64,000 nt of DNA from Galaxea fascicularis (lineage: Eukaryota > Cnidaria > Anthozoa > Scleractinia > Euphylliidae): the NCBI GenBank assembly GCA_948470475.1, contig OX419344.1:18188225-18252224 (forward strand), read 5' to 3'. Positions 1,462 to 37,570 of the stretch are shown one piece after another. Within the stretch, counting starts at the first letter, position 1. The number at the start of each line of letters is the position of its first letter. The position numbers were made by a program, and so were the translations under genes. Under the pieces are notes generated by a model, which ran no database searches, was not told the origin of the DNA, and saw only the letters and a program-made list of their open reading frames with translations.

Positions 1462-2211
1462 ATTGTTTCAGGTGATGGCCTGTTCTGGTTAGTTTTCAGT
1501 GGCTCTTGCTCAATAATAATGAGTACCTCATCAATGTCTATTTTATTGTCAGTAAAGGGTAGCTCAATAGCAATTTTCGGGTAGCCTACCCAAGTCCCGC
1601 ATTCGTTTGATCACTTCACTTCTGTGAAGTCTGTGGTATCTTGAATCTGGTATGTTCTTGTAAATGAATTATTTTCTCCTGTATTAGCTATTAACACAGA
1701 GAATGGAATGAATATATAAATATACCGGAATTCAAGAAACAAGAAATATGAGTGATAGGAACCGACGTTTCGGTGCATCTTGCGCCATTACCGGAATTCA
1801 GGTCAAGAATAAAGCAAGACGAAATGCGACGTGCTGATATATGAACAAGAGGCCATATTGGCCTGCCGAAACATATTTTGTAGTTGCCTGTACGTGGCAA
1901 GCACTATGTAACGGAACAAAGAAAATCTTAAAGCGTTTTGTAAGACGCGACGGAGGTCAAACAATAACAGGTAATAATAATGAACATAAAAAAATGGCGC
2001 AAAATTAACTGTCGATTGTTTGTGTCTTTTGGGGCGTGTGATGTGATGTTTTGTACTATTAAAAAATGTCGTTTCCTTTCTTTTAGTGTTACTAGATGTG
2101 GCGAAATTTGCATCTTTCCTTTCTGAGCCATTTTAAAACACAAACAAGTAGTCTGTACGAGAAGAAGAATTCTGTTTACTACATTGAAATATCTCTTTTT
2201 GTTCAAGAGAT
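1462..2211. other. No gene seen
   Basis: AT-rich sequence with only short frames on both strands; a GGAATTC-containing motif occurs twice around 1727-1800. I see no exon with credible splice sites. Confidence 0.4.
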
Positions 2212-2772
2212 ATTCAAGTTTTTTAAAATATGCAAATTAGCCAAGCGATGACGTCATAAACTCAACCAAATTTTAATCAAATATGATGAAAACAGATATC
2301 TCTGTCAATTTGTATCAGGCCTGCTTGATCTTTTACAGTAAGATTCTACCAGATGTGTTCCACAACATGAGCTTACAATTTTTGTTACCACGGCAACATA
2401 CTGGGTTTCCTGATATTAAAGACTTTTCTGGCAACCTTTGGCATTCTATTTTAATATTTGCCAATGGTGCCTCATTTGCGTGATAAGCAAGCATATAGAT
2501 ATGTTAAGTAGAGTTTGTGGCCTTGTTGAATTTTTTTGCAAGCTGAAAATCACTAAAATATTTAAATCAGGTTGGAGGTACTGGAAGAGAGAGTTGCCAT
2601 GGGAACCGATTTTTTTTTATAGCCGTAAGTGTGTTACCTGTAGAACAGTTGGACTGCCAAGTTTCAATGGTCTCTGCTTCAAATTGACCGGGATAGCTCT
2701 ATTTATATATTGATGTAAATTTTAGGTTGAGTTTATGACGTTTATGTCATTTGCATATTTTAAAAATTTTTC
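2212..2772. mobile_element. ~560-bp MITE with long imperfect TIRs
   Basis: The left end (about 2220-2275: AAATATGCAAATTAGC, then GACGTCATAAACTCAACC) is the imperfect reverse complement of the right end (about 2715-2765: GGTTGAGTTTATGACG, then TTTGCATATTT). The interior carries frames of 66 and 91 aa without recognisable similarity. Exact ends and target duplication are not resolved. Confidence 0.7.
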
Positions 2773-4098
2773 AAACTCAAATTATCTCCGGAACCAATGC
2801 AGATATTTGAAAACGGTAAACGGCGCTTTAAATCTTTCCTGGAATTCTATGTGATAAACCTAAAAATTCAAGGGTTAAAAATTTGATCATAGTAGCATTT
2901 TAAGATCACTTTCCTGAATGATGAGTATAATAAATGCCAGCAATAATAAATCCTACTGTTAAAATGAATGACATTCAATTTTCAGACAGCAGCGATTGAA
3001 TCAAAAGCCCTATCCATTGGCGTTGCGAGAGTTGTTTTCACCGTATTTTAGCTCATAATTTTGCTCTAGCAATGTAATCATTGATGGTAATTCCTTTAGC
3101 ATTAAAATTACTGTCTCATCGATTGTCACCATTTTCCCTGAGATTCTCAATTAGTAGTTGAAAAGATTTTAATAAAACAATATTCTGTCGGCCGGCTTAC
3201 TAAATACTACGAAATGATCATAACCAGCTCGCTCTCGTAGAATAATTGTTAAATAATCAATCAAGTGTTTTCGCTTGCACGCAATTGGTCTAAACGCATA
3301 GCGTGCTCAGTGAATATGCCCTAGCTAAACCTGTGATATTCCCCCAAAACATATTGCGAAAAACATTTGAGAGGACCATAGAGACAATAGCCTCTACTTG
3401 GCTTTAAAAAAAAAATGCTCGGCGGATATTTTTCCTTAAGGGGTCTCAATAGGGGTCAGCAAATCCGTCGATCCGTGCTAATTTTTAGAAAAATCCGCCA
3501 ATCCGCAGATATTTTTTCGTAAATCAAAATGCACAAAGTTGTTTTTTCTCTTGCAGTACTGTTAGAGACGTAAGCACATTAGAACATTCACATAACTGAC
3601 GTTAAATAACTGTTAATTAAATGTTAATTTTGAAATTTTTAACTTTTATTACCTTTTCCTTAACAAATTGATTTTTTATTGAAAACAAGTGAGCAACACA
3701 CAGCAACAGATCTTGTCACAGAGCTCTCTAGTTGATTTGTTGCAAAATAGTGGGATTTTTGACGGCGAAGCCCTGTATTGTGACCCTGAAGGCATCACCT
3801 TTCTGTTGAAGGAGGGGGGAGGTGGAGGGGGGAGGGTCTGGGGTACCGTCCCCCAGAAAATTTTGAAAACTTGAAGTAGCTAAGACGTGTTTTTCTTTAG
3901 TCTGAGAGGAAAGGTGGCCCTTCAAAAGTAACCATGTAGACCACCTTGGAGAGCAATGACCAGAACTAGGTTGTGGTTGCTAACCAGCGGCTTTCGTTAA
4001 AACAATGTTTGGGTGAGGGTGCTCATTCTTGCGGGCTCAGAAAACATGGTTCTTCTCATTGTTATTATATTTAAAGATTTTTAAGAGAGTCAACGATA
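2773..4098. repeat. Repeat-like AT-rich segment, no gene
   Basis: The words AATCCGTCGATCCG near 3462 and again near 4745 are in the same orientation, so 3430-4775 is probably one repeat unit of about 1.3 kb interrupted by the MITE at 4099-4314. A G-rich run at about 3812-3850 lies inside a 61-aa frame. No gene supported. Confidence 0.45.
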
Positions 4099-20745: not shown

Positions 20746-21113
20746 AACCAACCAATTTTATCTAGCTGGCTGGGAAATATCTTGTGTGTCTTGCTGGCAA
20801 AAAGGAACAGATATTTTTTTTCCCAGCAATATTAAAAAACACCTGAAAATGCCTGAATAACATTTAGTTTTATTAACTGGGGTATAATAATACATTTTTC
20901 AGCAAATTGGTCGTTTTGTGCCCCTGTCCACATCCAAATTGAGGCTTTTTTTCTTGATGCGGTAAATCACAGCGGGCCCAGACGTTGTTTGTGATTTACA
21001 TACGTGACAGTATTGCGTTACGTTTTGAGCCATTTAAGAGAATGTATGAAAATGGTTCGAAAATCGCTCTAAATTCAACTTGTAGTAAAGGATTTCAATA
21101 AAAGAAGCTTACC

Positions 21114-21350
21114 TCAGTCTGCGCTTGTGTTATTTTGAAGTCTTTGTGGTAGCTGTGTCGTTCTAAAGCCATTTTGACGATTTAAACTTTTCCAGGTTTG
21201 CTTTGCAGTAAAGAGAAACGAAAGGCTAGCGACCTGGTCGGCCGACGGCGAAGCTCCATAAATTCCACTAAAATGCTCGGAGCTCGCCAAAATTGCCTCA
21301 CGACAGCCGTCGATAATTCTTCTTCGTAGTTGCTTCGCCTCGGATTCCAA
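21114..21350 (-). CDS. 78-aa frame in left arm of long-TIR element (unknown)
   Basis: It starts MESEAKQLRRRIIDG. It is nearly identical to the plus-strand frame at 23,619-23,828 because the two lie in inverted arms. The protein is charged at its start and I do not recognise it. It may be the first exon of a captured host gene: the mirror copy is followed by a good donor (GAG|GTAAGC at about 23,858). Confidence 0.45.
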   Translation of the reverse strand: MESEAKQLRRRIIDGCREAILASSEHFSGIYGASPSADQVASLSFLFTAKQTWKSLNRQNGFRTTQLPQRLQNNTSAD

Positions 21351-21811
21351 GGTTTATCTTATCCGCCCGAAAAACACTCCTTTTCGAGCGCCGGCTGCCC
21401 ATTTCTGCTTCGTCTCGATCCGTAACGAGTTATCTTGGCCACGGATTTCATTTCAAAATCGTTGGCTTAGCGACCGCTCCATCCCGACAAAGTCGCCCTC
21501 AACCGTAGGGAGGCACAGGTCAATTTGCTCTATGCAAATTAAACCGTATCATGATCCCTGGAGAAATTACACAGGAAAAGGCGGGAAACTCACACAAACA
21601 TTCCGCTTACTCATTACTTAGTGGGGGGAAGGGCCTACTTACAGCTGATAGAGCGCTTGTAACGATGGGTTCTTATAGGTCCTCATAGCCTAGAAGTGCA
21701 TTTTCTTCCGATTGACGTAATACTTTGGTCAACTGGAAACGATGGGGTAGGGCGTACTGAAAGACTATTGAACATAAAATCTCCGGAATCAAAATTGTTC
21801 GGAACAGGTCG

Positions 21812-23001
21812 CAAGGACATCTGCAAATGGTTAGACTTTCTAGTATTCTCGGATAAGGACAATAAATCGTAGGTCCCCTCTCATAATTGATTCTGTGGGA
21901 CGTAAAAGAACCCCTGTTCGAAAAGAGTAGTAGTTCCCGGTGTGGTGGTCTATCTGTGACGTGAGTCTTTCCCTTGCGCGACAAGATTGAACAAAAGACT
22001 ATACAAAACCCTTCCCGCAAACCCGCAACACACCAAAAGACTAAGTAATGTTACAAATTTAATAAATTTAAAATACATAGAAGATTATTAAACGCAGAAC
22101 TAACAACTCCTAACTTATAATTTAGATATAAAACTAAGCTAACTTAAAAGATAACACTAAATTAATTAATTACTTAACTCTTATATTTACAATTGGACAG
22201 TTTAGTCCAGTTCTTTGATAGTCCAGTAATTCCTTGTCCTTGATACTCTTCCAAAACAAACAAACCGAAAACAACCTACAACCATCAACCTTCTCACAAT
22301 CTTTCTTCACCTTTGGCGCCCTCCTTCTTTACCTTGCTCTATCTCTTAGCTTTCATCTTTCTTCTTCGTACTTGCTTTTTCCAACACCTTCGCGCTCGCC
22401 GCCGCCGACAAAGGGGTTTTGTCTGTGGGACACAGCTGGCTCCTACCAATGGCTCTTGGCAGTGGTATCTTGAGCGTCGTGGCCTTCGACCTTTCAGTTC
22501 GCAAACTTTCCTTCTTCTTGCTTCTCTCCCACTTTCTTTCCTTCCAACTGACAACTGACTGACTGACCACCTTCACCACGAAACTTACATTTTATACAGA
22601 TGCATACTATTAGCAATTAACACTTTACATACATACGCGGTACCTTACAATCGTATGTTATTTTACACTCTTACGTCCTAAACACGATAACTTTACACTC
22701 CTATGATAACGCTTTACAAAATTTACAAGATATTAATTACAGACTAAGTTACAATACATCTCTAATTACAAACCACACTACAACGCTGAATTAACACTAG
22801 ATAATTAACGCTAGGACGATATGAAATACTGAAACCGAAAAACTAACAAAAAGCTAAATAAAAACATGACAAAAAAGACAAAAACAATGACGAAAAATGT
22901 AAATATTAGAAATTCCGTGACACTATCTCATCCGATGATTAAATACTCGGAGATATATCTGCATAAGCTACTCTAAAATCCGAGGCTAAATAAAGTAATG
23001 T
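21812..23001. other. Spacer of the long-TIR element
   Basis: AT-rich sequence with TTAATTAATTA runs and short GACTGACTGAC and TATGTATGTATG simple repeats. Overlapping frames near 22,313-22,580 occur on both strands and look like compositional artefacts. No transposase motif was seen. Confidence 0.6.
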
Positions 23002-23298
23002 ATGTATGTATGTATGAACGAAACTAGCATGTCTAGTGTGCGAATGTTAGAGCTTGCCAATGCCCTGCATCATCGAGCTTACGAATGCGATGGTGAAGAA
23101 AACAAGATGCCTTTCGCGGAAATGCAGCTAATTGTAGTTGGCGAATTTTTGCAGCTACGGCCTGTTCCGAACAATTTTGATTCCGGAGATTTTATGTTCA
23201 ATAGTCTTTCAGTACGCCCTACCCCATCGTTTCCAGTTGACCAAAGTATTACGTCAATCGGAAGAAAATGCACTTCTAGGCTATGAGGACCTATAAGA
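23002..23298 (+). pseudogene. PIF1-like helicase fragment, frameshifted
   Basis: The frame has PFAEMQLIVVGEFLQLRPVP, the PIF1/RecD-family motif usually written GDFxQLPPV, followed by FDSGDFMF. The expected continuation, ALPHRFQLTKVLRQSEENAL, lies in another frame (about 23,213-23,298), so a frameshift near 23,205 splits it. A second partial copy lies inverted at about 21,680-21,807. Only a small middle part of the ~600-aa or longer family is present: no Walker A and no C-terminal motifs. PIF1 genes are common in Helitrons and in host genomes; here it is a captured fragment. Confidence 0.75.
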
Positions 23299-23618
23299 AC
23301 CCATCGTTACAAGCGCTCTATCAGCTGTAAGTAGGCCCTTCCCCCCACTAAGTAATGAGTAAGCGGAATGTTTGTGTGAGTTTCCCGCCTTTTCCTGTGT
23401 AATTTCTCCAGGGATCATGATACGGTTTAATTTGCATAGAGCAAATTGACCTGTGCCTCCCTACGGTTGAGGGCGACTTTGTCGGGATGGAGCGGTCGCT
23501 AAGCCAACGATTTTGAAATGAAATCCGTGGCCAAGATAACTCGTTACGGATCGAGACGAAGCAGAAATGGGCAGCCGGCGCTCGAAAAGGAGTGTTTTTC
23601 GGGCGGATAAGATAAACC

Positions 23619-23828
23619 TTGGAATCCGAGGCGAAGCAACTACGAAGAAGAATTATCGACGGCTGCCGTGAGGCAATTTTGGCGAGCTCCGAGCATTTTA
23701 GTGGAATTTATGGAGCTTCGCCGTCGGCCGACCAGGTCGCTAGCCTTTCGTTTCTCTTTACTGCAAAGCAAACCTGGAAAAGTTTAAATCGTCAAAATGG
23801 CTTTAGAATGACTCAGCTACCACAATGA
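23619..23828 (+). CDS. 69-aa frame in right arm of long-TIR element (unknown)
   Basis: Mirror copy of the frame at 21,114-21,350. It stays nearly identical for ~65 residues and then ends early at CAATGA because of substitutions. That the copies stay this close fits inverted arms kept alike by gene conversion or by recent origin (inference). Confidence 0.4.
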   Translation: MESEAKQLRRRIIDGCREAILASSEHFSGIYGASPSADQVASLSFLFTAKQTWKSLNRQNGFRMTQLPQ

Positions 23829-24575
23829 CTTCAAAATAACACAAGCGCAGACTGAGGTAAGCTTCTTTTATTGAAATCCTTTACTACAAGTTGAATTTAG
23901 AGAGATTTTCTAACCATTTTCATACATGGCTCAAAACGTAACGCAATACTGTCACGTATGTGAATCACAAACAACGTTAGGGCAGCCTGTGGGTAAATGG
24001 GCATCTTGGCACACGGGGCAGCCATCTTGTCACTCAGAATCAAGCGATCATTCACAGTACCAACAACTTGATATTCATACTCACTGGAAGGCTTAGCCTG
24101 AAAGGGACCCTGAGAATTCTTCTTCTCAGCCTTGTTTTGATAAAAAAAAATTTAACTTTTGGAAGATATTACATGAGACCAGGCATTAAACAAACCATTG
24201 CAGAAAAAAAAAAACCATTGTGACAACGACCGCAGGGCAGGATCGCCAGAAGTCTATAATAGTGTAGATATTCGAAATATGATTGGTTATGATATTTTAA
24301 TGTGGATGATATGTATGAAATAAGTTATATATTTTAATGGCCCAGAATAAGGCACAAACATAAAAAAGAATGCCAAGGTTCTACCACTGTCACAATCACC
24401 ATCATCATTAACATTACCCAAAAGTAATGAGAGCACCATTTCGGGTTAAAACACTGTAGGTTTCAATTGGATTTTTGTCCTCAGTATTGTTGGGCCATTT
24501 TTTACATGAGGAAATCTTCAAAGTTGGATTTTTAGTGACGCGACACGAGGAAAAGTGTCTTTTCTAAACACGTAG

Positions 24576-25218
24576 TGTTCCGCGCGTTTTTGTTTTTGTT
24601 CCTTTATTACGCACAATAAAGGAACTTTATTTGCACAATAGGAACAGAGGTTGGCAAATTTCGGAACAATCTGGTCCATTAGTAACAAATTGGAACATAA
24701 AGTTCCTTTTCATGCTAGTCAAAAGGAACAATTGGTTCCTCTCTTATCCTTTCAGGAACAAAAGGTCCTCTTTCCTCAGTTCCGATTTCCTTTCATGTTC
24801 CTTTCAAAAAGGTTGGGGAACAGATGTTCCCAATCTAATTTATCGCTCGACACAGTAAGGAACTAGTCGTTCCTATTCACTGGCATATCCACTGCAGTTC
24901 GGAACGCCTTGTTCCCTTTCGGTTCAAATGGTTCCTATTCATGTCCGAGGTGATTCGCGTATAAATGGGAACAGGCTCCGAATTTGTGACAAAGGAACTA
25001 GCGTTCCATTTTGCGCAAAGTGTAAAAAGGAATAGGCTATCTGTTCGGAACGCCTTGTTCCCTTTCGGTTCAAATGGTTCCTATTCATGGACGAGGTGAT
25101 TGTTTGTTCCTTAAGATGAGTGTTATGTCCGGCGTATAAATGGGAACAGGCTCCAAATTTGTGACAAAGGAACTAGCGTTCCATTTTGCGCAAAGTGTAA
25201 AAAGGAATAGGCTGTCTG
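24576..25218. repeat. GGAAC/GTTCC pentamer array with 146/176-bp tandem duplication
   Basis: By hand count 29 GGAAC or GTTCC words fall in about 640 bp; about one would be expected by chance. Two tandem units (24,897-25,042 and 25,043-25,218) share most of their sequence, and each contains GTATAAATGGGAACAGG. The second has about 30 extra bases. The array lies directly upstream of the recombinase gene and may be a protein-binding or subterminal repeat region. Confidence 0.85.
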
Positions 25219-25495
25219 AAACTACTGTTCATCACCTCATCTATACAAATTTATCAAAACATACATCCTTCAACAATCAAGTTAAGTGTAGGGCTTGCCC
25301 GCTACATGTTTAATCTCGTCCGGGCTGGCCCTGGCAAGTTCAGGCTTGTGCCTTTGTTCCTTTTGATTAATTGTGTACCAAATACGGACAAGGAAACAAT
25401 GAGGCAAGGGGCAAGAATGACCAAGTGTGGACAGAGATGAGCTAAGAAATATCTTATTGGAGAATAGGATGATCTCTTGGGGAACCTTTTGCTAG

Positions 25496-25504
25496 TATAT
25501 ATAT
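25496..25504 (+). promoter_or_regulatory. TATA box of the recombinase gene
   Basis: TATATATAT lies about 40 bp before the first ATG (25,541). This predicts a leader of only some 10-20 nt, so the second Met at 25,550 may also be used. Confidence 0.6.
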
Positions 25505-25540
25505 GCGTGCATTCTTTAGAAATACATCGATTGCAACCAA

Positions 25541-27274
25541 ATGCTTAAGATGAACAAACGAGGCAAGGATGTCAACTGGTCAATGTTAGCAAATGCATCG
25601 CCTAAACCAAAGAGACTTCACTTAGAAGAGGATGACTGTGATGGTCTTTTTCACTGCCCAGTGCAAATTTGTAAGCACGATGGATTCACTACACAAAGAG
25701 GCTGTAGAAAACACGTAAAGAGCAAGCACTCTTGGTACTATTATTTTGACGAGAAGCCAGACAGCGTTCAAATCGAATCGTTTGATGGTCAAGCGCACAA
25801 TAATACAGCCACTGATCAGAAGACTGCGCGCAAAATGAGGACAGTTGCGACTTTTGACAAGACGAGCGACATTGCTAAGAATTTCTTGTCGTGGCTCACA
25901 GGAAGTGGCGGAGGCTGTAAAAGTGATCGACAAGCACAACAAATCGTCAACAGGTGCTTAAAGTTTCTTAAATTTTGTTGCGAAGACGAAGAGGAGCTCA
26001 CATTTGACATTGTCGACTTTAGTTTATGTTCGCCTAATCTCCTATTTAAATTCGTTGATACGATGCAAGATGATTGGGAACTAGGACACGCAGGGCGCAT
26101 TGGCTACTTAGACGCCATTGCAGAATTGGCGGATTTCAGAAAAGTGAATGGTGCATCCGATGTTGTATTGAGGGGCTTGTCTTCTACGGAAACATATCTG
26201 AAAAAGGCCCGTAAAACAGTTTCGAAAATGATGCGGTTGCAATGGATCAATGAACTCGACATCGACACCCTAGAATCCAAGGGACATTGGGCCACGCTAG
26301 AAGAGCTTTTGGAAGTTGTTGCGCGTTACTTGCCTCGCTACGAGAACGTACTTAAAACATGCAAGGATAAACCAGCTACAGTATCACCACTGGAGTTGTC
26401 CTTTGCCACAAAGTTTCTTGCGGTGTATTTGTTTATCAAGGTCAAAGGTTCCCGCCCGATGACCTATCAGTTTTTGACCGTTGATATGGTGCGCACAGCA
26501 AAGACCAACGGGGGATTTATCGATCAGAAAATGTTCAAGACGGCAGGAAAGTATGGCTTTGATTCTTTCTTCCTCACCGACACAAGCATGCAGGTGTTGG
26601 ATGGTTACATCGACCACATTCGCCCTCACTTGAAACCGACTTGTGATTACGTTTTAGTCACGAGGAATGGCGGCCAGCACAACAAACTTGGCGAGCTGAT
26701 GAGCAAGTTAGTGTTTGACGCGATCGGGAAATACGTTCACCCGACTCGTTACCGACAAATAGTGGAGACAGTCAGCTCCAAGAAACTTAGTAGCAACGCG
26801 CAAGGCACGATCTCCGAGGACCAGAAGCATAGCTCAGTTGTGGCAAGAGTGCATTACCAAAAGCAAAGATCGCGAGAAATCGCGACCAAGGCCCACGAAT
26901 ACCTGGAAACCCTTTATGGCGAAAAGGGATCGGCGCTAGAAATGGATGTTCGATCACGACTTTCAGACAAATCAGCGTCTTCGCCAGAACAAGAGGACAA
27001 TGACGATGGGTCGGTCCCCGAACAACACACTGACATTCACATTACGCCCACTAATTCCAAAAGCAAGAATGTTTCGAAAACACCCGATTCTTTTACGGGA
27101 AGGAAAATTCTGCTATTTACTCCAGAAGAGGATCAATATTTGAGGATGGGACTTGAACGTCATGGTTTCGGAAATTGGACAGCTATTCTTAGAGATCCAG
27201 ACTTTCATTTTCAAAAAGGGCGAAAACCAAACTCTCTCTTAAATCGCGCAGCCAGAAAGTTCAAAAAGTACTAA
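25541..27274 (+). CDS. C2H2 - tyrosine recombinase - SANT/Myb protein (577 aa, intronless)
   Basis: In order: a C2H2 finger (C39, C44, H58, H63); a helical region of about residues 105-235 where tyrosine recombinases have their core-binding domain; a catalytic domain with R305 (KGSRPM), H400-x-x-R403 (HPTR), H430 (KHSS) and the candidate nucleophile Y439 (HYQK), spaced as in the phage-integrase/Crypton fold; an acidic linker; and a C-terminal SANT/Myb-like domain (about 525-573, FTPEEDQYLRMGLERHGFGN). All catalytic positions appear present, so the protein may be active. It would cut and join DNA at element ends through a 3'-phosphotyrosine; the finger and SANT domain would supply target or end recognition. 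It converges on the helicase gene, with 280 bp between the stops. No frameshift seen. Crypton-like is the nearest family label; the domain order differs from Cryptons I know. Confidence 0.82.
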   Translation: MLKMNKRGKDVNWSMLANASPKPKRLHLEEDDCDGLFHCPVQICKHDGFTTQRGCRKHVKSKHSWYYYFDEKPDSVQIESFDGQAHNNTATDQKTARKMRTVATFDKTSDIAKNFLSWLTGSGGGCKSDRQAQQIVNRCLKFLKFCCEDEEELTFDIVDFSLCSPNLLFKFVDTMQDDWELGHAGRIGYLDAIAELADFRKVNGASDVVLRGLSSTETYLKKARKTVSKMMRLQWINELDIDTLESKGHWATLEELLEVVARYLPRYENVLKTCKDKPATVSPLELSFATKFLAVYLFIKVKGSRPMTYQFLTVDMVRTAKTNGGFIDQKMFKTAGKYGFDSFFLTDTSMQVLDGYIDHIRPHLKPTCDYVLVTRNGGQHNKLGELMSKLVFDAIGKYVHPTRYRQIVETVSSKKLSSNAQGTISEDQKHSSVVARVHYQKQRSREIATKAHEYLETLYGEKGSALEMDVRSRLSDKSASSPEQEDNDDGSVPEQHTDIHITPTNSKSKNVSKTPDSFTGRKILLFTPEEDQYLRMGLERHGFGNWTAILRDPDFHFQKGRKPNSLLNRAARKFKKY

Positions 27275-27554
27275 ATTAACCATAGCAAAATAGTGTAATG
27301 TTTAACTGGAAGACCACTTACGTTAAACCTCCATCGGATGAAATACTACTAACAACTTCTCTGGAAACACGGGGCTTAAATACAGCAATTCTAGTTATGA
27401 CATTTATTTTCTTCGTTTCAGTCTAAGAGGCTCAAATCAGTTGGCATACAATTGACTGCTTGATACTTTGTCTTTTTAATTAATGTCGATAACTTAGCAC
27501 CCAATATCTACATATTTCTGGAAATATCTGTTTTTCTTATGATAACATCGATTT
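27275..27554. other. Convergent intergenic gap between recombinase and helicase
   Basis: 280 bp, AT-rich, between two stop codons facing each other. No canonical AATAAA is obvious for either gene, so the transcripts may overlap at their 3' ends. Confidence 0.5.
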
Positions 27555-30500
27555 TCATTGTTGGCTAGGTTTGAAAAAGTTCGTTATCCTTCCCTTCTTG
27601 GGTACTGGAGTGCTTGTTTGGGATGGCCGTTTTCTAGATTTTCCTCTCTGAAAGACGTTCCTACTTGTGCTTTTCTGTGTTGGTGTCTGGGAAGAAGAAG
27701 GAGTGATGAAAATATCTTGATCGTCGCATTCGCATTCTTCTCCATTGAATGGGTATGGCATGGGTTCCCATACGCTCGTAATACGTTCGGCCTGTTCCCT
27801 GGATAACCACTTCATATCCAATGCTCTTTTCTTTCTTTCCATGATAACAAGTCTGGAGAGGCCAGGTAACTCATCTCGTTTGAAGTTCAACTTGAGGGCT
27901 TCCACAGTAACTCCAATCATGTAATGCACAGCGCGTTTGACATCGCCATCCCTTGCAGTTTCCTCTTGTTCTTGTAGCTGTCGCAATTCTTTTTCCTTTG
28001 CCCACACCCACTCGTTCTCATAGTAATTGGACGCTTTATCCTGCAAATTCTTCTGCTCTTCTTCTTTCTTTTTCGCGAAGTACTCTTGCCGTGAACGTTC
28101 AATTCTCGGATGGTATGGGCCTTCAACCGTCTCCAGCAAGTGAGCATCTTCCTCTCGAATCATTCCAAGAGATATCCAATGTTGTCTTGTCTCGGCAAGA
28201 ATCCGCGCCTTAGCCCGTTGTGCTTCAGTTTCTCTCTCCTTCGTGGCACGCTTCACTCCAGCTGCAATGAGCCCCAGTTGCCTTTGTCTCAGGCTGTTGC
28301 ATGGCTGCTGCTCTCAAAGCTCAGATATTTTTTCAAGCGTACTCTCCCATCCGTCAGAAAACGTTGATTCGGCATCCGAATTTACTTGGTTGACTTCTCC
28401 TGCAGATAGGTCGTCGTCAGTTTCTACCACGAGTTGCCCTTCTTCAACACTTGCTTCTTGTTCGCTTTCACTGTCTTCCAGGTTCATCGTTGCGATTCTA
28501 TTCCTTTCCTCGTCATCAAATTCATTTGGCTTTGCAGCTGATCCAGGAATTGGAGGGGGAAGCTCATCATCTGGAGTGCGCGCCACTCTGCTTGCCCACA
28601 CGATACAATCCATTGCACTGTCACGCAATGACTGCTGTACTCCTGGAATTGGTCGAGAGTTCAGACTTTTAAAATAGAACTTGCGTAGACGTGCATCCAT
28701 GGCCGCGTTGTGCTCTTCCCCAAAATCCATTTCTGTTTGGCAGGTGATGAACATGGGACATCGAATTTCCTGTTGGCTAGAGCTTCTGTATTTCCGATCG
28801 TGAGCGGTAAGTCCCCCCTGCGTCAAAACTTTCCAGTCATCGGGATCTAAAAGCTTGACGTGTGCTTCATCCATGAAGATGACTTGGGTCCTTTGGTCAA
28901 CGAGACTCTTGTTAAAGGCTTTCTGTTTGGTTATCATGGCGATGTACCTGTGAAGGGAGACATAAACAATTAATTGTACAAAATCGAGTGAACATTCGAC
29001 CTTTGCATGTGCTTTATTTTGGATCAGGGCCCCTCTCAACGGTTGAAAAACACTTCCGAGGTTGCGTTGATATTTTCTACCTGATGAAGCAGTCAAAAAC
29101 AAGAACAAAACAGCAAATACCTAGCAGGAATTATCCGAGTGATCGGCGTGAATAGGCTTGTTTTCCCGCTGTTTGGCTCCCCAATTAAGCACATGACTTT
29201 CTCTTTGTGTTGTTTAATTCCGTGATTTAGAAGACGCAAGTAGTATTCGCAGAAGTGTGTCACACCAGTCGGACTTAAGCTGTTCTCTAGAATTTCTTGA
29301 AAGTACTTGGACTCTGGCTCTTTAGTGTGGGAGTACTGTTCAAATGCTCGCGGACATTCTTTTCCAATTTCTTTAATGGGGTTTTGGACAAATCTTCTTT
29401 GACTTAGCGAGAAACACCAACCATTCAAAACTTCAATTAAGTCGTAGTTGATTCTTAACTGTTTCGTAAATTCGCTCTCGGGGTCGGCCAGTATAGATTC
29501 TAGCTTGTTGAAATTTGTGATGATAATCTCCTTCAATTGATCGTTGTTTGCCAGGACTGACAGGAACTTTTTGATGGAGCAAGCGTGTTCGAAGGTATAC
29601 ATTGAAGCTTCGTTTTTCTTGAAAACGTCGCCTTTGTGTAACGCGTAGCCCAGTTTTGCCATGGCTCTCTCAATTTTGTTTAGTGCAACAATGACGGGAG
29701 ACTTGGACAAGGCCCTTCCAATAGACTGCTGACTTTCCGACTCTTTCACATTTTCTATTCCAAAGACGTCAAATACCAGACCAGCTCTAGTAAGTGCCGG
29801 GATTGCCCTGTTTTGCAATTCCGATGAAAAAACGGGACTTTGAACTTGCAGGCGGACGACACGTTCGCTGCCGTGAATTGATGGAACAGGCTCTTTCAAT
29901 ATCTGCGATTCAAGCGCCTCTAAACAATGCTGAAACGACACATCAACATTTCTTTGCAAGAAGCTGTTATTATGGTCTTTCACTGTTGTGCACAAGGGAG
30001 CGACTGCAATTTCTTCCTTTCCTCTCGAACATTCTTGTACAGATTTAGCTGTGACTTCCATGCCTGTTTCCAGAACCGCTGAGTGAACTGGAATAGTTGA
30101 CATTCTAAGGCCATCTCTGGATTGCAGAGCTATCCAATACGATATTGCAGGCCAATAGACCTTTTTCTTCCTTTGAGAATTACTATTCGGCGTTTCTTCG
30201 TCACCATCTTTGTCTTCTTCACATTCGTTTTCCTGAACTTTCTTCTCCACAACTGCAACTGAAGAAAAGAAAAATGCCATCTCCTTGATTTTCTTCATGG
30301 CTTTGTCGCACGCGTCTCGTTTCGCACATATTTCTAACCATAGCTTGTCTGGGTCTCTTGTCTCTTGCGATGTGTTGTAGGTCACTTTAGCTGAGATCAC
30401 TGAACATTTTTCCTGAACGATTGGTAACACTTTGCTTACAAGAGCACTTCGAATATTCTGCAGGAGAGTCAAACAGAAAAATAGCAACGTTAGCACTCCT

Positions 30501-30611
30501 ACTTGAATTCGATACAAGACTTAACTCTTCACCCTTTGACTAAACACAACTTAAGATAAAGCACAGGATACATACCTTACTGTTGAGCTGCCGAGCAGGA
30601 GCACTTGCCAT
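27555..30611 (-). CDS. SF3-type helicase of the recombinase element (3 exons, one in-frame TGA)
   Basis: Exons on the minus strand: 30,611-30,576 (starts MASAPARQ), 30,457-29,121, and 28,947 to the stop. Donors AAG|GTATGT and AG|GTATTT join in frame to acceptors TGCAG and CACAG. Helicase motifs: Walker A GEPNSGKTS (about residue 438), Walker B VIFMDEAH (about 472), motif C-like CPMFITCQT (usual Asn replaced by Gln), then DARLRKF with the expected arginine. The ~40-residue A-to-B spacing fits superfamily 3, known from parvovirus and other small-replicon Rep proteins. No HUH nuclease motif was seen in the ~430-residue N-terminus. The frame meets TGA at 28,316-28,314 (about 668 residues in) but stays open for 252 more codons, including a charged coiled-coil-like stretch and a tail GRITNFFKP resembling a PIP box. 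Intact product, readthrough or pseudogene cannot be decided from sequence alone. Confidence 0.8.
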
Positions 30612-30657
30612 CACGATTTCAACTTTGCAACTGGTGAGAGCAAGTCTAAGCCTTTCG

Positions 30658-30665
30658 CTTTTATA
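30658..30665 (-). promoter_or_regulatory. TATA box of the SF3 helicase gene
   Basis: TATAAAAG on the minus strand lies about 47 bp before the ATG. The layout mirrors that of the recombinase gene (TATA close to the start, very short predicted leader). Confidence 0.65.
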
Positions 30666-31325
30666 GCATTTCACGTAATAGCTGATTTAAATTCTGTGAC
30701 TCTTTTTTGTTTCAAGGAGTAACCATGATAATTTCAACGAAATAGCGATACTAAAATTCTTTTGGTGTTTCATTCAAAGGCTTTAAAGCTATTGATAGGT
30801 AGCGAATACCGAACGCTGCGTAGTGCACGAATTTTGTTGGCTTTGAAAATTAAATATCAAAACTTTTGTGAGATATCCAATATCTTTAAAAGAAACGCAT
30901 GCTTGCTTTGAAAGCGGTGCAAAAGTATTCTGAGAGAAGAACGATTATATATTGCGTCCGTTTCTTGATATGGATTTTTTTTCGAGGAATTTAGTGATTT
31001 TAGCACATTAGAAAACGATATCCCAAACTTATGCCAAAAAGCGTGCAGTCCAATGCACTCGTAGCAGTTATAATCCTACCCCAAACAATTAAAAATAGCA
31101 AAGAAAGACCAAAGTATGTAATTAGCAATGTTCCAGGAATATTTAAAAGAAGGTGACAACTATCAAACGTTGGTTGTAAAATTATCTTGTAAATATTTGT
31201 GCAAGCAATTTGTCTGGCGGCGAGCAAGGAATTCCGCAAACAGAATTGAATGCGCAAGCACGAGATATTACATGAATATTAAACTACTATTAAAGAACAC
31301 TGAAAGATGATGCTATTCCTAACTC
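30666..31325. other. No gene seen
   Basis: AT-rich flank between the helicase promoter and the palindromic repeat. A minus-strand frame at 31,000-31,257 is hydrophobic but has no family motif. Confidence 0.4.
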
Positions 31326-31656
31326 CAAATGATATAACTGTAAGTGCTGTCTCCATGCATTCGTCATATCAGCCATGTCTGAAAGAAATTCATTCAACTC
31401 CAAATTGTCCGTCACTCAAAATATCTCAAACGGTACTTGACGAAGATGCACTTGCAGTAAGATAGGGAGGCACTATTCAAAGCCCTTATCATGCCATTCA
31501 GAGATGTGGAAGTGCTGTCTCCGTGTATCCGTCATATCCACAGTACTTTAAGAAATTCATTGAAGTCCAAGTTGTTCCCGGCACTAAAATATCTCAGAGA
31601 AGACGGAAACACAGGAGATGACGGAGATACACTTACAGATAAGCTGAAAGGAATAT

Positions 31657-31657
31657 A

Positions 31658-31691
<34 letters not shown>

Positions 31692-31734
31692 TTAATATTG
31701 ATATTAATAACAGTAGTAGTAGTAGTAGTAGTAG

Positions 31735-31769
<35 letters not shown>

Positions 31770-31792
31770 TTACTGTTATTATTATTATTATT
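31657..31792. repeat. Self-complementary trinucleotide tract at palindrome centre
   Basis: (AAT)n, then (AGT)n, then (ACT)n, then (ATT)n runs read as reverse complements about a centre near 31,735, with a short ATTAATATTGATATTAATAAC patch on one side. The tract can fold into a long hairpin. Confidence 0.85.
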
Positions 31793-31856
31793 CCTTTCAG
31801 CTTATCTGTAAGTGTATCTCCGTCATCTCCTGTGTTTCCGTCTTCTCTGAGATATT

Positions 31857-32849
31857 AGGGACCTTTAGCAAGAACGACGGGGACAGATGGCAACGGCTAC
31901 CGGAAACACAAATTGACTTCCGGAAATACTCTGCGCATGACCGGGGTTGTTTGCTCGCGGTCGTCCACTCCGCGCGAACGTGAAACTGGTCATTTTGGCG
32001 TTGTCGGAAAACGTGAGTATTTCATCGGTTATAGCTTACAGATTGTACCTTTGTATTTCATGACATCGATTAGGAACTATCCTGAGTGAACTGTCTAAGG
32101 TTTTTCTGAAAGGCAGAGTTCGTGTTATCTTTGTTATGTGAATAATACTCGTATATTTTGCACACTGATAGTAACTGAGAGAAATGCCTTTTACCGCGAC
32201 AGGACCACCGACTGTAGGAAAAAATGTTTTGATTCCACTGAGTTTTGCGATGGCCATGAATGTCAAATATGTAGTTCAGCGCTTGGTTAGTGACAAGACT
32301 GATGACAGACACTGGTCGGCCGAACAGCGGGATCATGTCGCCGTACCGGCAAGGATACGCAGCACGTTTGAGTAACAAGCATAAGCCCTCGATACCATCG
32401 CATACACTTCGTTGCTCGCATCTGAAGGTTGCAGGAAGTTGTAGCGCTTGAGCAAGACGCGGTATGTGTTCCTTTTGAAAGCGAAAATCTGCATAACAAT
32501 CTGCTGAACTGATGTCATCAAGATCAAAGGCAGGATAGTTTTCGTACTTGAAATCAGGATTTTTAGACTGCAACTTTTCGTACGAAATAAGAAATTCTTC
32601 GTCTGAGATCATCTTACTGTCATAACATATCGCCAGGAGATCCCGGAGTTCTTTAAAACTCGCCATTCATCAACGATAAATTAGTTTTCTTCACTTACGT
32701 TGGTGTTAATTTGTGTTTACTCCGTCACACACGAAGGTGACAGCTAAAGTATTTTGATTTTGGCGGCGACGGCATAAAACTATCCTTAGTCCTTCTCGGT
32801 TAATTACGTCGCCGTCGCCCTCAAATCCCGATGCTAAAGGTCCCTATTT
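31857..32849. mobile_element. ~990-bp truncated PIF/Harbinger element with TIRs
   Basis: The ends GGGACCTTTAGCA and TGCTAAAGGTCCC are inverted repeats; both sides of each end carry TA-rich bases. The host repeat is found uninterrupted nearby (GAGATATTTTAGTGCC near 33,024), giving an approximate empty site. It carries the 5' part of a Harbinger transposase gene but no catalytic domain. Confidence 0.85.
32070..32666 (-). pseudogene. PIF/Harbinger transposase, N-terminal fragment
   Basis: 198-aa frame starting MASFKELRDLL. FRFQKEHIPRLAQALQLP, CEQRSVCDGIEGLCLLLKR and AYPCRYGDMIPLFGRP are typical of the helix-turn-helix region ahead of the DDE nuclease in animal Harbinger transposases. After about residue 150 (QWNQN) the sequence no longer follows the family, and no DDE residues are present, so a deletion has removed the catalytic domain. 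The element could move only in trans. Confidence 0.82.
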
Positions 32850-33479
32850 TAGTGCCGGGGACAACTTGTAGATCAATAAATTTCTCAAAGTATGGTGGAT
32901 ATGACGGATACACGGAGACAGCACTTCTAGATCGTTGAATGGCATAGTGATTAGGGTCTTTGGTTATTACTGCCTTATGTCATTGTACGTGTATCTCATC
33001 CACTTGCTGTGTTTTCGTCTTATCTGAGATATTTTAGTGCCGGGGACAACTTGGTGTTTAATGAATTTCTTAAAGTATGGTGGATATGACGGATACACGG
33101 AGACAGCATTTCCATATCTTTGAATGGCATAATAAGGGTCTTTGAACAATACCTTTCTACGTTACTGCAAGTGCTTCTTGGTCATCTGCAGTGTTTTTTT
33201 AATCAATTTATGTTGTCTTCAATAAAGGAATCATACTCCACATAAAGGGAACAAAAGGGCCGGTTAACTTTAGTTCCTCTCAAGGGGAACACTTTGAATG
33301 GCTTAAGCGCTTTTCAGAGAGCAATTTACTCTTTCAATGAAGACAATCCATATTTTTAGGTTGTAGTCAAGTCCGTTCTACAATATATAGCATTGGATAT
33401 GCAAGTTACGTCGAAATTGTAAGATTTTCTGCTCCTTTTCCAAAGGGAACGGTGACGTTTAGGAAACGATCATTACCAT

Positions 33480-35544: not shown

Positions 35545-35917
35545 GCAAAACCGTATAACCCCTAACGGGTCTCCACTGGACGAGTAAAATTAGCCACTAA
35601 AGTCACTCTTAGGAGGGAAGGGGTTAAGGGAGATAGTTTTTTAAGGGAGATAGTTTTTGAACCCTTCCAACCCTAAGGGGTCTCTGTTTGACGAGTAAAA
35701 TCGTCTGGCGTTAAACAGAGTAACATCTTTAAAGTCACTCTCAGAGAGGACAGGGTTAAGGGAAATAGTTTTTGAACCCTTCCACCCCTAAGGGGTCTCT
35801 CTTTCGCGAGTAAAATCGTATGGCGTTAGACAGAATAAAATCCATAAAGTCACTCTTAGAGAGGAAAGGGTTAACGGAGATAGTTTTTGAACCCTTCCAC
35901 CCCTATGGGGTCTCCCT

Positions 35918-35953
<36 letters not shown>

Positions 35954-35965
35954 CATCTATAAAGA
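35545..35965. repeat. ~115-bp minisatellite, about 3.5 copies
   Basis: The phrase TAGTTTTTGAACCCTTCCA recurs at about 35,651, 35,765 and 35,881, giving a 114-116-bp period. Each unit also holds GGGGTCTC, GACGAGTAAAATCGT and AAGTCACTCT. A shorter unit starts the array. Non-coding. Confidence 0.88.
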
Positions 35966-35969
35966 GTGG

Positions 35970-37570
35970 AAATCTCCAAGTGCAAAGCCAAACACACTAA
36001 TCTATTTTTCACTAGAGATTTCTTTATTTACACGGTTAATAACGTACTGAATTTGGGACTGTTACTTGTCATCGGTGGACATGCATGAAAACAGGTCTCT
36101 TAAACCTGGGCGTGATATCTGGCCTGTAGAAATATAAGATCGTCACGACATCCCGCAGTAAACCGTGAGAACTAACAATGACCCGTCAAGTACAAATAAA
36201 CGGCAAGGTGATAATTTAACTTCCCAACTTAATGTCAAGCTTTGCATTTTAACAAAGACTGTAGGCTCTCGTCAAGCGTAGAGAGTCGCATCGTGACAAA
36301 AATGTGGCTTATTTATTACGTCAGAATTCTCGCACAGCAAAAGCGATTTTTGTATTTAATTAAATTGGGTCACGTTGACTCATACTAGTTCGCACGGCCT
36401 GACTTTTCAATGGTAAATTTTTAGGCTCTTACTGTAGAACGAACATGTGCAAAAACTGTGTTCCACGAACAGTACTTAGTTTTCCAACTTCAGTATAACA
36501 TGGTGTGAATTAATTTATAAGAAGATCGCCACAGAACAATGGGACATCCAGGAATGACATCCGAGACATGTTCCTGCAACAGGTGAGAATTCCAGCAGGT
36601 AAATGTAGTCATGGTAACTATGGTAACAACGACATGATTCTAGTACAGTGGGCAAGACGTTGAAGGGAGTATCAGAAACTCTGAAGGGAGGTCAAAGATC
36701 ACATTATCCTGCGGTGGAACTAAAGACCTTGCTCTGGGATCTGTTAACATGAAATTCCAAGACGTATTCATTGGTTATGCACAAAAGCACGTTTTTTTGC
36801 TTAAGGAACTGCTAAAACGTAAATTGGCAAAACCCGCTGAAATAAGAGTAACAACATGGAAAAATATCCACGACATGGTGAAGAGTAAACAGCCAAAAAT
36901 ATTTTATGAACATTAGCTTAAAAAAATTCCTTGTGGCGAGGAAGCGAAAAAAGGACACAGTCAGAGAGTAGGATCAGTCAGTCTAAATTTTCGGAAACGT
37001 TTGATCACTCTTTACTTTTCACCCTAAACTTGGCAGAATGTCGCTTAGCAGCCCTTATGCTGAAGGACCACTGGAGAAAGTGTTTGGGAGGGGGGGGGGG
37101 GGGTAGTGGATCAAGCCAAGGGTCAAGTTTAGGGTTGCTCCTTGTTATATATCTCTAACCTGGGAAACGTTGCTGCGTAGCGTCCAGTTCAGTGCTGCGG
37201 TGTCATCGATCCGTGACGACCTGCACAACGACACGACAAGGATCTAGGGTTTGAGTGTCTGTCAACAAGCACTGATCAAAAGCATCGATTGAGAATAACT
37301 ATGCGAGCAAAACACAGATTGTAGTTATACGTTTTAGGGTGTTTTGGGGAACAGAAGAAAAAGCAAACACTTTTTTGTGATCTGGAAAGAAAATATTGAC
37401 CAAATATTCCGATTAGAAGAAACCCATATGGTCTTTTTCGTTACAAAACCTCATGTTTTAATAGAGCTCCCCCAACAATGGTAACTGAAGTTTGAGGTAA
37501 TCGTTTCTTCAAAGAAAATCCTTGTTAGGGGGAAAACAAACTCCTGCCGAGTGGATTTGTTGAGATTGGA
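35970..37570. other. Intergenic, no gene seen
   Basis: Contains a G-run at about 37,088-37,106 and short frames only. No exon with a good splice pair was found. Confidence 0.4.

Follow-up and report, generated by a model that had tools for sequence, protein, structure and literature searches.

How DNA transposons that move by a tyrosine recombinase increase their copy number is, to our knowledge, unclear; excision and re-insertion alone add no copies. A locus in the stony coral Galaxea fascicularis raises the question of whether such an element can carry its own means of replication. The window analysed here is the whole 64,000-nucleotide stretch of contig OX419344.1 (assembly GCA_948470475.1) from position 18,188,225 to 18,252,224 of the forward strand, or G000:C10:18188225-18252224 in our numbering. 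A first-pass annotation of the window had described a C2H2-tyrosine recombinase-SANT gene and an SF3-helicase gene that converge in one block of about 9 kb, had noted that the block is missing from a paralogous intron, and had read it as a single element. The block was confirmed, with borders that we took from the comparison of copies (Table 1), and the paralogous intron is indeed element-free and carries a GAT repeat as well. The recombinase lies on the plus strand and the helicase, the larger gene, on the minus strand. We read the block, with a probability of about 0.7, as a Crypton-like transposon of two genes, one a tyrosine recombinase for integration and the other a replication initiator of its own.

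We searched the genome (416.6 Mb in 170 contigs) for both genes. The 79 recombinase matches merged into 65 loci and the 90 helicase matches, based on exon 2 alone, into 48 loci, both counts being lower bounds. A recombinase locus lay within 15 kb of 33 of the 48 helicase loci, and all 33 pairs were convergent. In 30 of the 48 the distance was 4 kb or less, which agrees with the repeated co-occurrence within 1-4 kb that the first-pass annotation had expected of one element. Counted from the other side, 33/65 recombinase loci had a helicase within 15 kb, with the nearest pair convergent in 32 of the 33. The convergent order stayed constant while the paired helicases ranged from 35 to 100% identity to that of the window. 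Homologues of the helicase and the recombinase in other assemblies are listed without coordinates, with longest contigs of equal size (81,048 and 717,496 bases), which suggests that the two genes are linked there too. Among the matches listed (for the recombinase, the best 120 of 880), all species-named homologues of both proteins are cnidarian: Porites, Oculina, Acropora, Montipora, Desmophyllum, Nematostella and Actinostola, with Clytia for distant helicases.

The copies share fixed ends and include two diverged subfamilies, A and B. Subfamily A, to which the window copy belongs, begins TCATTAACATTACCC and ends GTTTAGGAAACGATC, and beyond both points the flanks diverge between copies. The left border of the window copy is common to L031, L032 and L034 and the right border to L031, L032 and L033; the left terminus, TCATTAACATTACCCAAAAGTAATGAG, is presumably a recombination end. 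The final 271 bp of subfamily A occur at 8 places, by eye adjoining its 8 recombinase loci (those of at least 88% identity). For subfamily B, the 19-mer at the left end has 22 exact matches in the genome. Within 12 kb downstream, 19 of these lead to a recombinase gene of like orientation, in most cases after about 1.1 kb, two have a helicase only and one has neither. Neither gene was found near 6 of the 19 left-end sites with one mismatch and 13 of the 19 with two. When up to three mismatches were allowed, the left-end pattern matched 96 times forward and 84 times in reverse, and a backward control 70 and 83 times; since these counts are near the control, we give no weight to matches with more than one mismatch. 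One might suppose that two unrelated elements inserted together in the window by chance, and the window copy does hold one unrelated nested insert. We rejected this accidental pairing as barely credible, because 33 of the 48 helicase loci are paired, all of them convergently, and because the right end lies beside all 8 subfamily-A recombinases.

The flanks point to a preferred target for subfamily A. All four right flanks that were read are ATC-rich, with 20-59 trinucleotide words per 100 bp compared with a window mean of 0.47. A count shows the left flank of L032 to be ATC-rich; those of L021 and L030 look so by eye, and that of the window copy is weakly so. We presume from these flanks that the insertion site of subfamily A is the edge of an ATC microsatellite or lies close to it. 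By eye, no ATC preference is seen in the 14 left flanks of subfamily B. Both subfamily-A ends carry 3-4 bp of ATC(A), the exact core being blurred since the presumed target is itself a microsatellite. A comparison of the left arm of subfamily B with the right arm of subfamily A gave 10/11 matching positions (null fraction 0.002), which serves as a lead only, as the right end of B was not obtained. At G000:C2:18109802-18132159 and C6:22347084-22357970, left ends follow one another in like orientation at a distance of about 10-11 kb, and these are possible head-to-tail tandem elements, which are expected if circles insert next to resident copies.

Some copies appear to be young. L031 (contig C8) and L032 (contig C9) are similar in size, 8.3-8.4 kb between fixed ends, and share 99.55% identity over 8467 aligned bases, of which about 100 lie in the ATC-rich right flank. 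Their recombinase genes (L002 and L003) are identical with an open frame, and both long helicase exons are open. Other copies have decayed: helicase exon 2 is broken in L033 and L034, and the window copy has an in-frame stop in helicase exon 3 (28314-28316) and holds the nested insert, without which its element is about 8.1 kb long. In subfamily B, the ratio of nonsynonymous to synonymous substitution rates (dN/dS) is 0.20 for the recombinase (45 non-independent pairs from 10 copies) and 0.27-0.54 for the helicase (6 pairs from 4 copies). By these ratios, both genes are shown to be under purifying selection, and the near-identical copies suggest that the element was active recently. Taken together, we conclude that the two convergent genes and the fixed ends around them form one unit, which occurs in many copies, some of them near-identical on different contigs; the common borders and the pairing thus bear out the single-element reading for this genome.

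Judged by its conserved residues and its predicted fold, the left-hand gene of the block is a tyrosine recombinase. The catalytic columns R-K-HxxR-H-Y are conserved in 17/17, 17/17, 17/17, 17/17, 15/17 and 16/17 sequences, and in a second-look structure comparison the predicted fold matches XerA and Cre. A PHROGs search with the recombinase alignment gave no integrase match, and DUF3435 was not among the Pfam matches of the 17 family members at E values up to 1. A tyrosine recombinase with a zinc finger is also what a fragment of a DIRS/Ngaro-like retrotransposon beside an unrelated endogenous helicase would offer, and DIRS-like elements are known in cnidarians, as passages of PMC3537659 state. 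We rejected this origin as highly improbable: the 14 distinct open reading frames (ORFs) tested, out of 30 and including every one of at least 92 amino acids, gave no reverse-transcriptase or RNase H match, and a lone fragment would leave the recurrent convergent pairing and the shared ends unexplained.

The second gene contains the Walker A, Walker B, motif C and arginine finger of an SF3 helicase, all within an SF3 fold. Its best structural matches are the SaPI5 primase-helicase and adeno-associated virus (AAV) Rep, tied within one Z unit, closely followed by B19 NS1, NrS-1, D5 and papillomavirus E1. The label "parvovirus-type" in the first-pass annotation is therefore too narrow. A PDB sequence search with the helicase profile returned nothing at E 0.1, and a single helicase query returned chance-level matches only. 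The HUH motif was absent from 6 of the 7 helicases scanned, the N-terminal region not being searched alone; the sole match, at residue 688 of P0014, lies C-terminal to the helicase core. With the same limit for the N-terminal region, this absence favours a melting initiator over rolling-circle nicking.

The helicase tail offers a possible link to the host. Of 64 helicase homologues, a set with many close relatives, 40 have [ILVM]xx[FYW][FY] within the last 16 residues; the motif occurs in 44 of 2831 internal windows and in 1.3% of the shuffled tails. The region preceding the motif is poorly conserved. Tails of this type are compatible with a PCNA-interacting box, and as a motif match the helicase tail fits such a box and is a candidate for one. 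The distant helicases P0189, P0193, P0202, P0205 and P0229 share a different tail, SQ[ST]YWT..K.W, which is perhaps another partner-binding motif.

Among predicted viral structures, those closest to the helicase belong to SF3/D5 helicases from algal and giant viruses, and passages of PMC4642659 and PMC12220804 describe polinton-like viruses and virophages that join a tyrosine recombinase (YREC) and an SF3 helicase (S3H). The element could accordingly be the relic of such a virus, reduced to these two genes after loss of capsid and polymerase genes. We consider this quite unlikely. In the 14 ORFs, no capsid, packaging ATPase, protease or polymerase/primase domain scored above the Pfam cut-off, a sequence-only test that may miss divergent proteins; scans of IMG/VR viral contigs confirmed no relative of either protein; and L031 and L032 have fixed ends and near-equal sizes. 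In prokaryote contigs, queried with the helicase only, no relative of it was confirmed.

A putative binding region for the initiator or for the recombinase, either of which could be the partner, lies at the left end. In the left 1.1 kb, the window copy has 31 GGAAC/GTTCC sites and the subfamily-B copy L006 has 33, compared with a mean of 2.4 and a maximum of 9, and a mean of 2.1 and a maximum of 8, respectively, in 500 dinucleotide shuffles. Five loci of the subfamily-B type carry 31-33 sites. The window copy and L006 have eight inverted pairs each, 0-5 bp apart, and the steps between successive sites cluster at 9-10 and 19-21 bp, close to one and two turns of the helix.

The two halves of the element do not always travel together. 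The recombinase halves of L013, L017, L018, L019, L006, L010, L015 and L026 are 91-100% identical to that of L008 (positions 1600-3200). In the first four of these the similarity continues into a like helicase, whereas in L006, L010, L015 and L026 it gives way to unlike DNA and to helicases about 36-45% identical to that of the window; the helicase of L008 itself is 59% identical to the window's. The break falls near 3.6 kb, roughly 400-500 bp past the recombinase stop. Like recombinase halves next to unlike helicase halves point to exchange between elements, as differences in rate hardly account for the pattern.

If our reading is correct, the recombinase would excise the element as a circle by recombining the two ends through the short ATC(A) core that they share. 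With the GGAAC iterons of the left end as its guide, the SF3 helicase would open the circle, and its PCNA-box-like tail could recruit the host replisome, so that the circle would be copied without a polymerase of the element. The recombinase would then re-insert the copies, in subfamily A at ATC-rich microsatellites, and elements would swap halves, with one recombinase half joined to several helicase types. Circular excision, circle replication, iteron recognition, PCNA recruitment and re-insertion are steps that we infer from the gene content and ends described above. The broader proposal is that there is an animal transposon class that amplifies as a replicating circle by its own tyrosine recombinase, iterons and SF3 helicase and by the host replisome reached through a PCNA tail, roughly an integrative plasmid of the animal nucleus, with integration and replication halves exchanged between families. 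We hold this proposal tentatively, at somewhat less than even odds.

Several observations weigh against a transposon with its own initiator. The data are genome sequence only, in which no circle, transcript or replication was observed. The left flanks of L031 and L034 are not ATC-rich, and the inverted arms at the subfamily-A ends match no better than chance (8/11, null fraction 0.08). Foldseek alone gave the recombinase model no significant match (best E 0.26), and PDB and Pfam sequence searches with the recombinase returned only the Myb domain or similar. Of the 64 helicase tails, 24 have no PCNA-box-like motif, although several look truncated, and more distant helicase homologues have other C-termini. 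The pairing also has gaps. The concern that the two genes mostly occur apart, raised in the first-pass annotation, falls away for the helicase (33/48 paired), but for 32 of the 65 recombinase loci no helicase was detected within 15 kb. Most of these are partial, yet five (C10:16016624, C10:16026463, C101:2950, C9:2237333 and C7:2504789) match near end to end in one piece. Conversely, 15 of the 48 helicase loci have no recombinase within 15 kb. In five of these 15, a correctly oriented left end of the element lies no more than 12 kb away, an arrangement that suggests internal deletion. At G000:C5:13422818-13427167 and C8:11060628-11064977, a helicase and a left end stand at an identical spacing of 2945 bp with no recombinase found between them, and the two loci may be copies of a non-autonomous derivative that kept the helicase alone and has multiplied in its own right.

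The recombinase loci without a helicase would fit an ordinary Crypton-like transposon that captured its helicase as a passenger idle in mobility, as would the joining of recombinase halves to differing helicases. Some Cryptons do bear an extra protein, for instance a C48 peptidase, according to passages of PMC3212892. An idle passenger is an unlikely explanation all the same, because the helicase is constrained and open in young copies, keeps its convergent place even at 35% identity to the window's and has homologues as distant as Clytia. The spacing of 2945 bp found twice between a helicase and an element end, moreover, suggests that the helicase part was worth copying.

By its recombinase, its lack of a reverse transcriptase and its short end repeats, the element with its own initiator is nearest in kind to the Cryptons, from which its gene content differs. 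Cryptons have a tyrosine recombinase, no reverse transcriptase or long terminal repeats and a short direct repeat at both ends, and a circular intermediate has been proposed for them (Kojima and Jurka 2011, PMC3212892); the main text of that paper nowhere uses the word "helicase". The element likewise has a tyrosine recombinase and short repeats at its ends, with no long terminal repeats and no reverse transcriptase that we could find. It adds a larger SF3-helicase gene and a GGAAC iteron array within 8.1-8.4 kb, so that it would depart from a Crypton whose only mobility gene is the recombinase by a recurrent helicase partner with a putative role in mobility. Polinton-like viruses and virophages are likewise integrating elements of eukaryotes that unite a tyrosine recombinase with an SF3 helicase. 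According to passages of the sources cited for them above, they are 14-40 kb long with capsid genes, whereas the element has about 8 kb and a recombinase with a C2H2-like finger and a Myb domain.

Among phage satellites of the SaPI/P4 kind, SaPI5 supplies the best structural match to the helicase, tied with AAV Rep. SaPI, P4 and integrative plasmids combine an integrase with an SF3 replication protein that acts at iterons; unlike them, the element sits in an animal chromosome and has a spliced helicase with a PCNA-box-like tail, in which no primase domain was identified. Papillomavirus E1 and parvovirus or AAV Rep share the SF3 core, and the pentanucleotide arrays resemble the GAGGC sites of polyomavirus large T. 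The element differs from these replicons by the lack of HUH in 6 of 7 helicases, by its probable integration through a tyrosine recombinase and by having no detected capsid gene. Starships of fungi carry a tyrosine recombinase at one end, but theirs is a DUF3435 captain with large cargo, and the Pfam matches of the recombinase family described here, at E values up to 1, include no DUF3435. Judged by title and the opening of the abstract, none of the open-access papers listed in our searches describes a capsid-less animal element with this gene pair, with Repbase and most subscription journals outside the search. There is a real chance that the element deserves its own class, and an earlier description elsewhere is possible.

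If our reading holds, a replication initiator carried by the element itself would give a direct and testable answer to how tyrosine-recombinase transposons gain copies, and would connect the transposons of animals with viral and plasmid-like replicons. The swapping of helicases behind a near-constant recombinase half resembles the modularity of phage satellites. If the element was active as recently as its near-identical copies suggest, circles could be found in living animals.

Table 1. Parts of the element copy in the window (positions count from the first letter of the window).
Feature	Position	Strand	Remarks
Whole element copy, subfamily A	24405..33471	+	9067 bp including nested insert; borders from copy comparison
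Left terminus TCATTAACATTACCCAAAAGTAATGAG	24405..24431	+	copies begin alike, flanks unlike
Iteron array, 31 GGAAC/GTTCC pentanucleotides	24577..25485		eight inverted pairs, 4-5 bp apart
Direct repeats inside iteron array	24897..25218	+	87-bp and 59-bp units, two copies here (repeat search)
Tyrosine recombinase gene	25541..27274	+	C2H2-like finger, core-binding and catalytic region, C-terminal Myb/SANT domain
Helicase exon 3	27558..28947	-	Walker B, motif C, arginine finger, helical region, PCNA-box-like tail
Helicase exon 2	29121..30457	-	N-terminal region and Walker A
Predicted helicase exon 1	30576..30611	-	start codon, 12 codons; splice-consistent model; N-terminus of Oculina P0014 similar
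Long imperfect inverted repeats beside right end	31339..33184		repeat search; repeated matches in L031-L034 too
Nested 988-bp insertion	31857..32844		terminal inverted repeats of about 14 bp; missing from L031-L034
Right terminus GTTTAGGAAACGATC	33457..33471	+	followed by ATC-rich microsatellite, presumed target

Further features lie in and around the window copy. The nested insertion is foreign to the element; its termini read TAGGGACCTTTAGC... and it holds a minus-strand ORF of 198 amino acids, for which a Pfam search gave no family above the cut-off and which we take to recall the N-terminus of a PIF/Harbinger-type transposase. The inverted repeats between the helicase start and the right end reach 155 nucleotides with 88% complementarity, and the region may be an origin or may consist of secondary insertions; its repeated matches in other copies hint that it could have a function. 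Weak viral Pfam matches of the ORF at 31535-31801 were below the cut-off and were set aside as translated microsatellite. Outside the element, tandem repeats of about 115 bp occupy window positions 35549-35985, and an inverted near-duplicate lies just left of the element (20968-23991), where 23158-23991 matches 21811-20968 at 97% over 844 bp.

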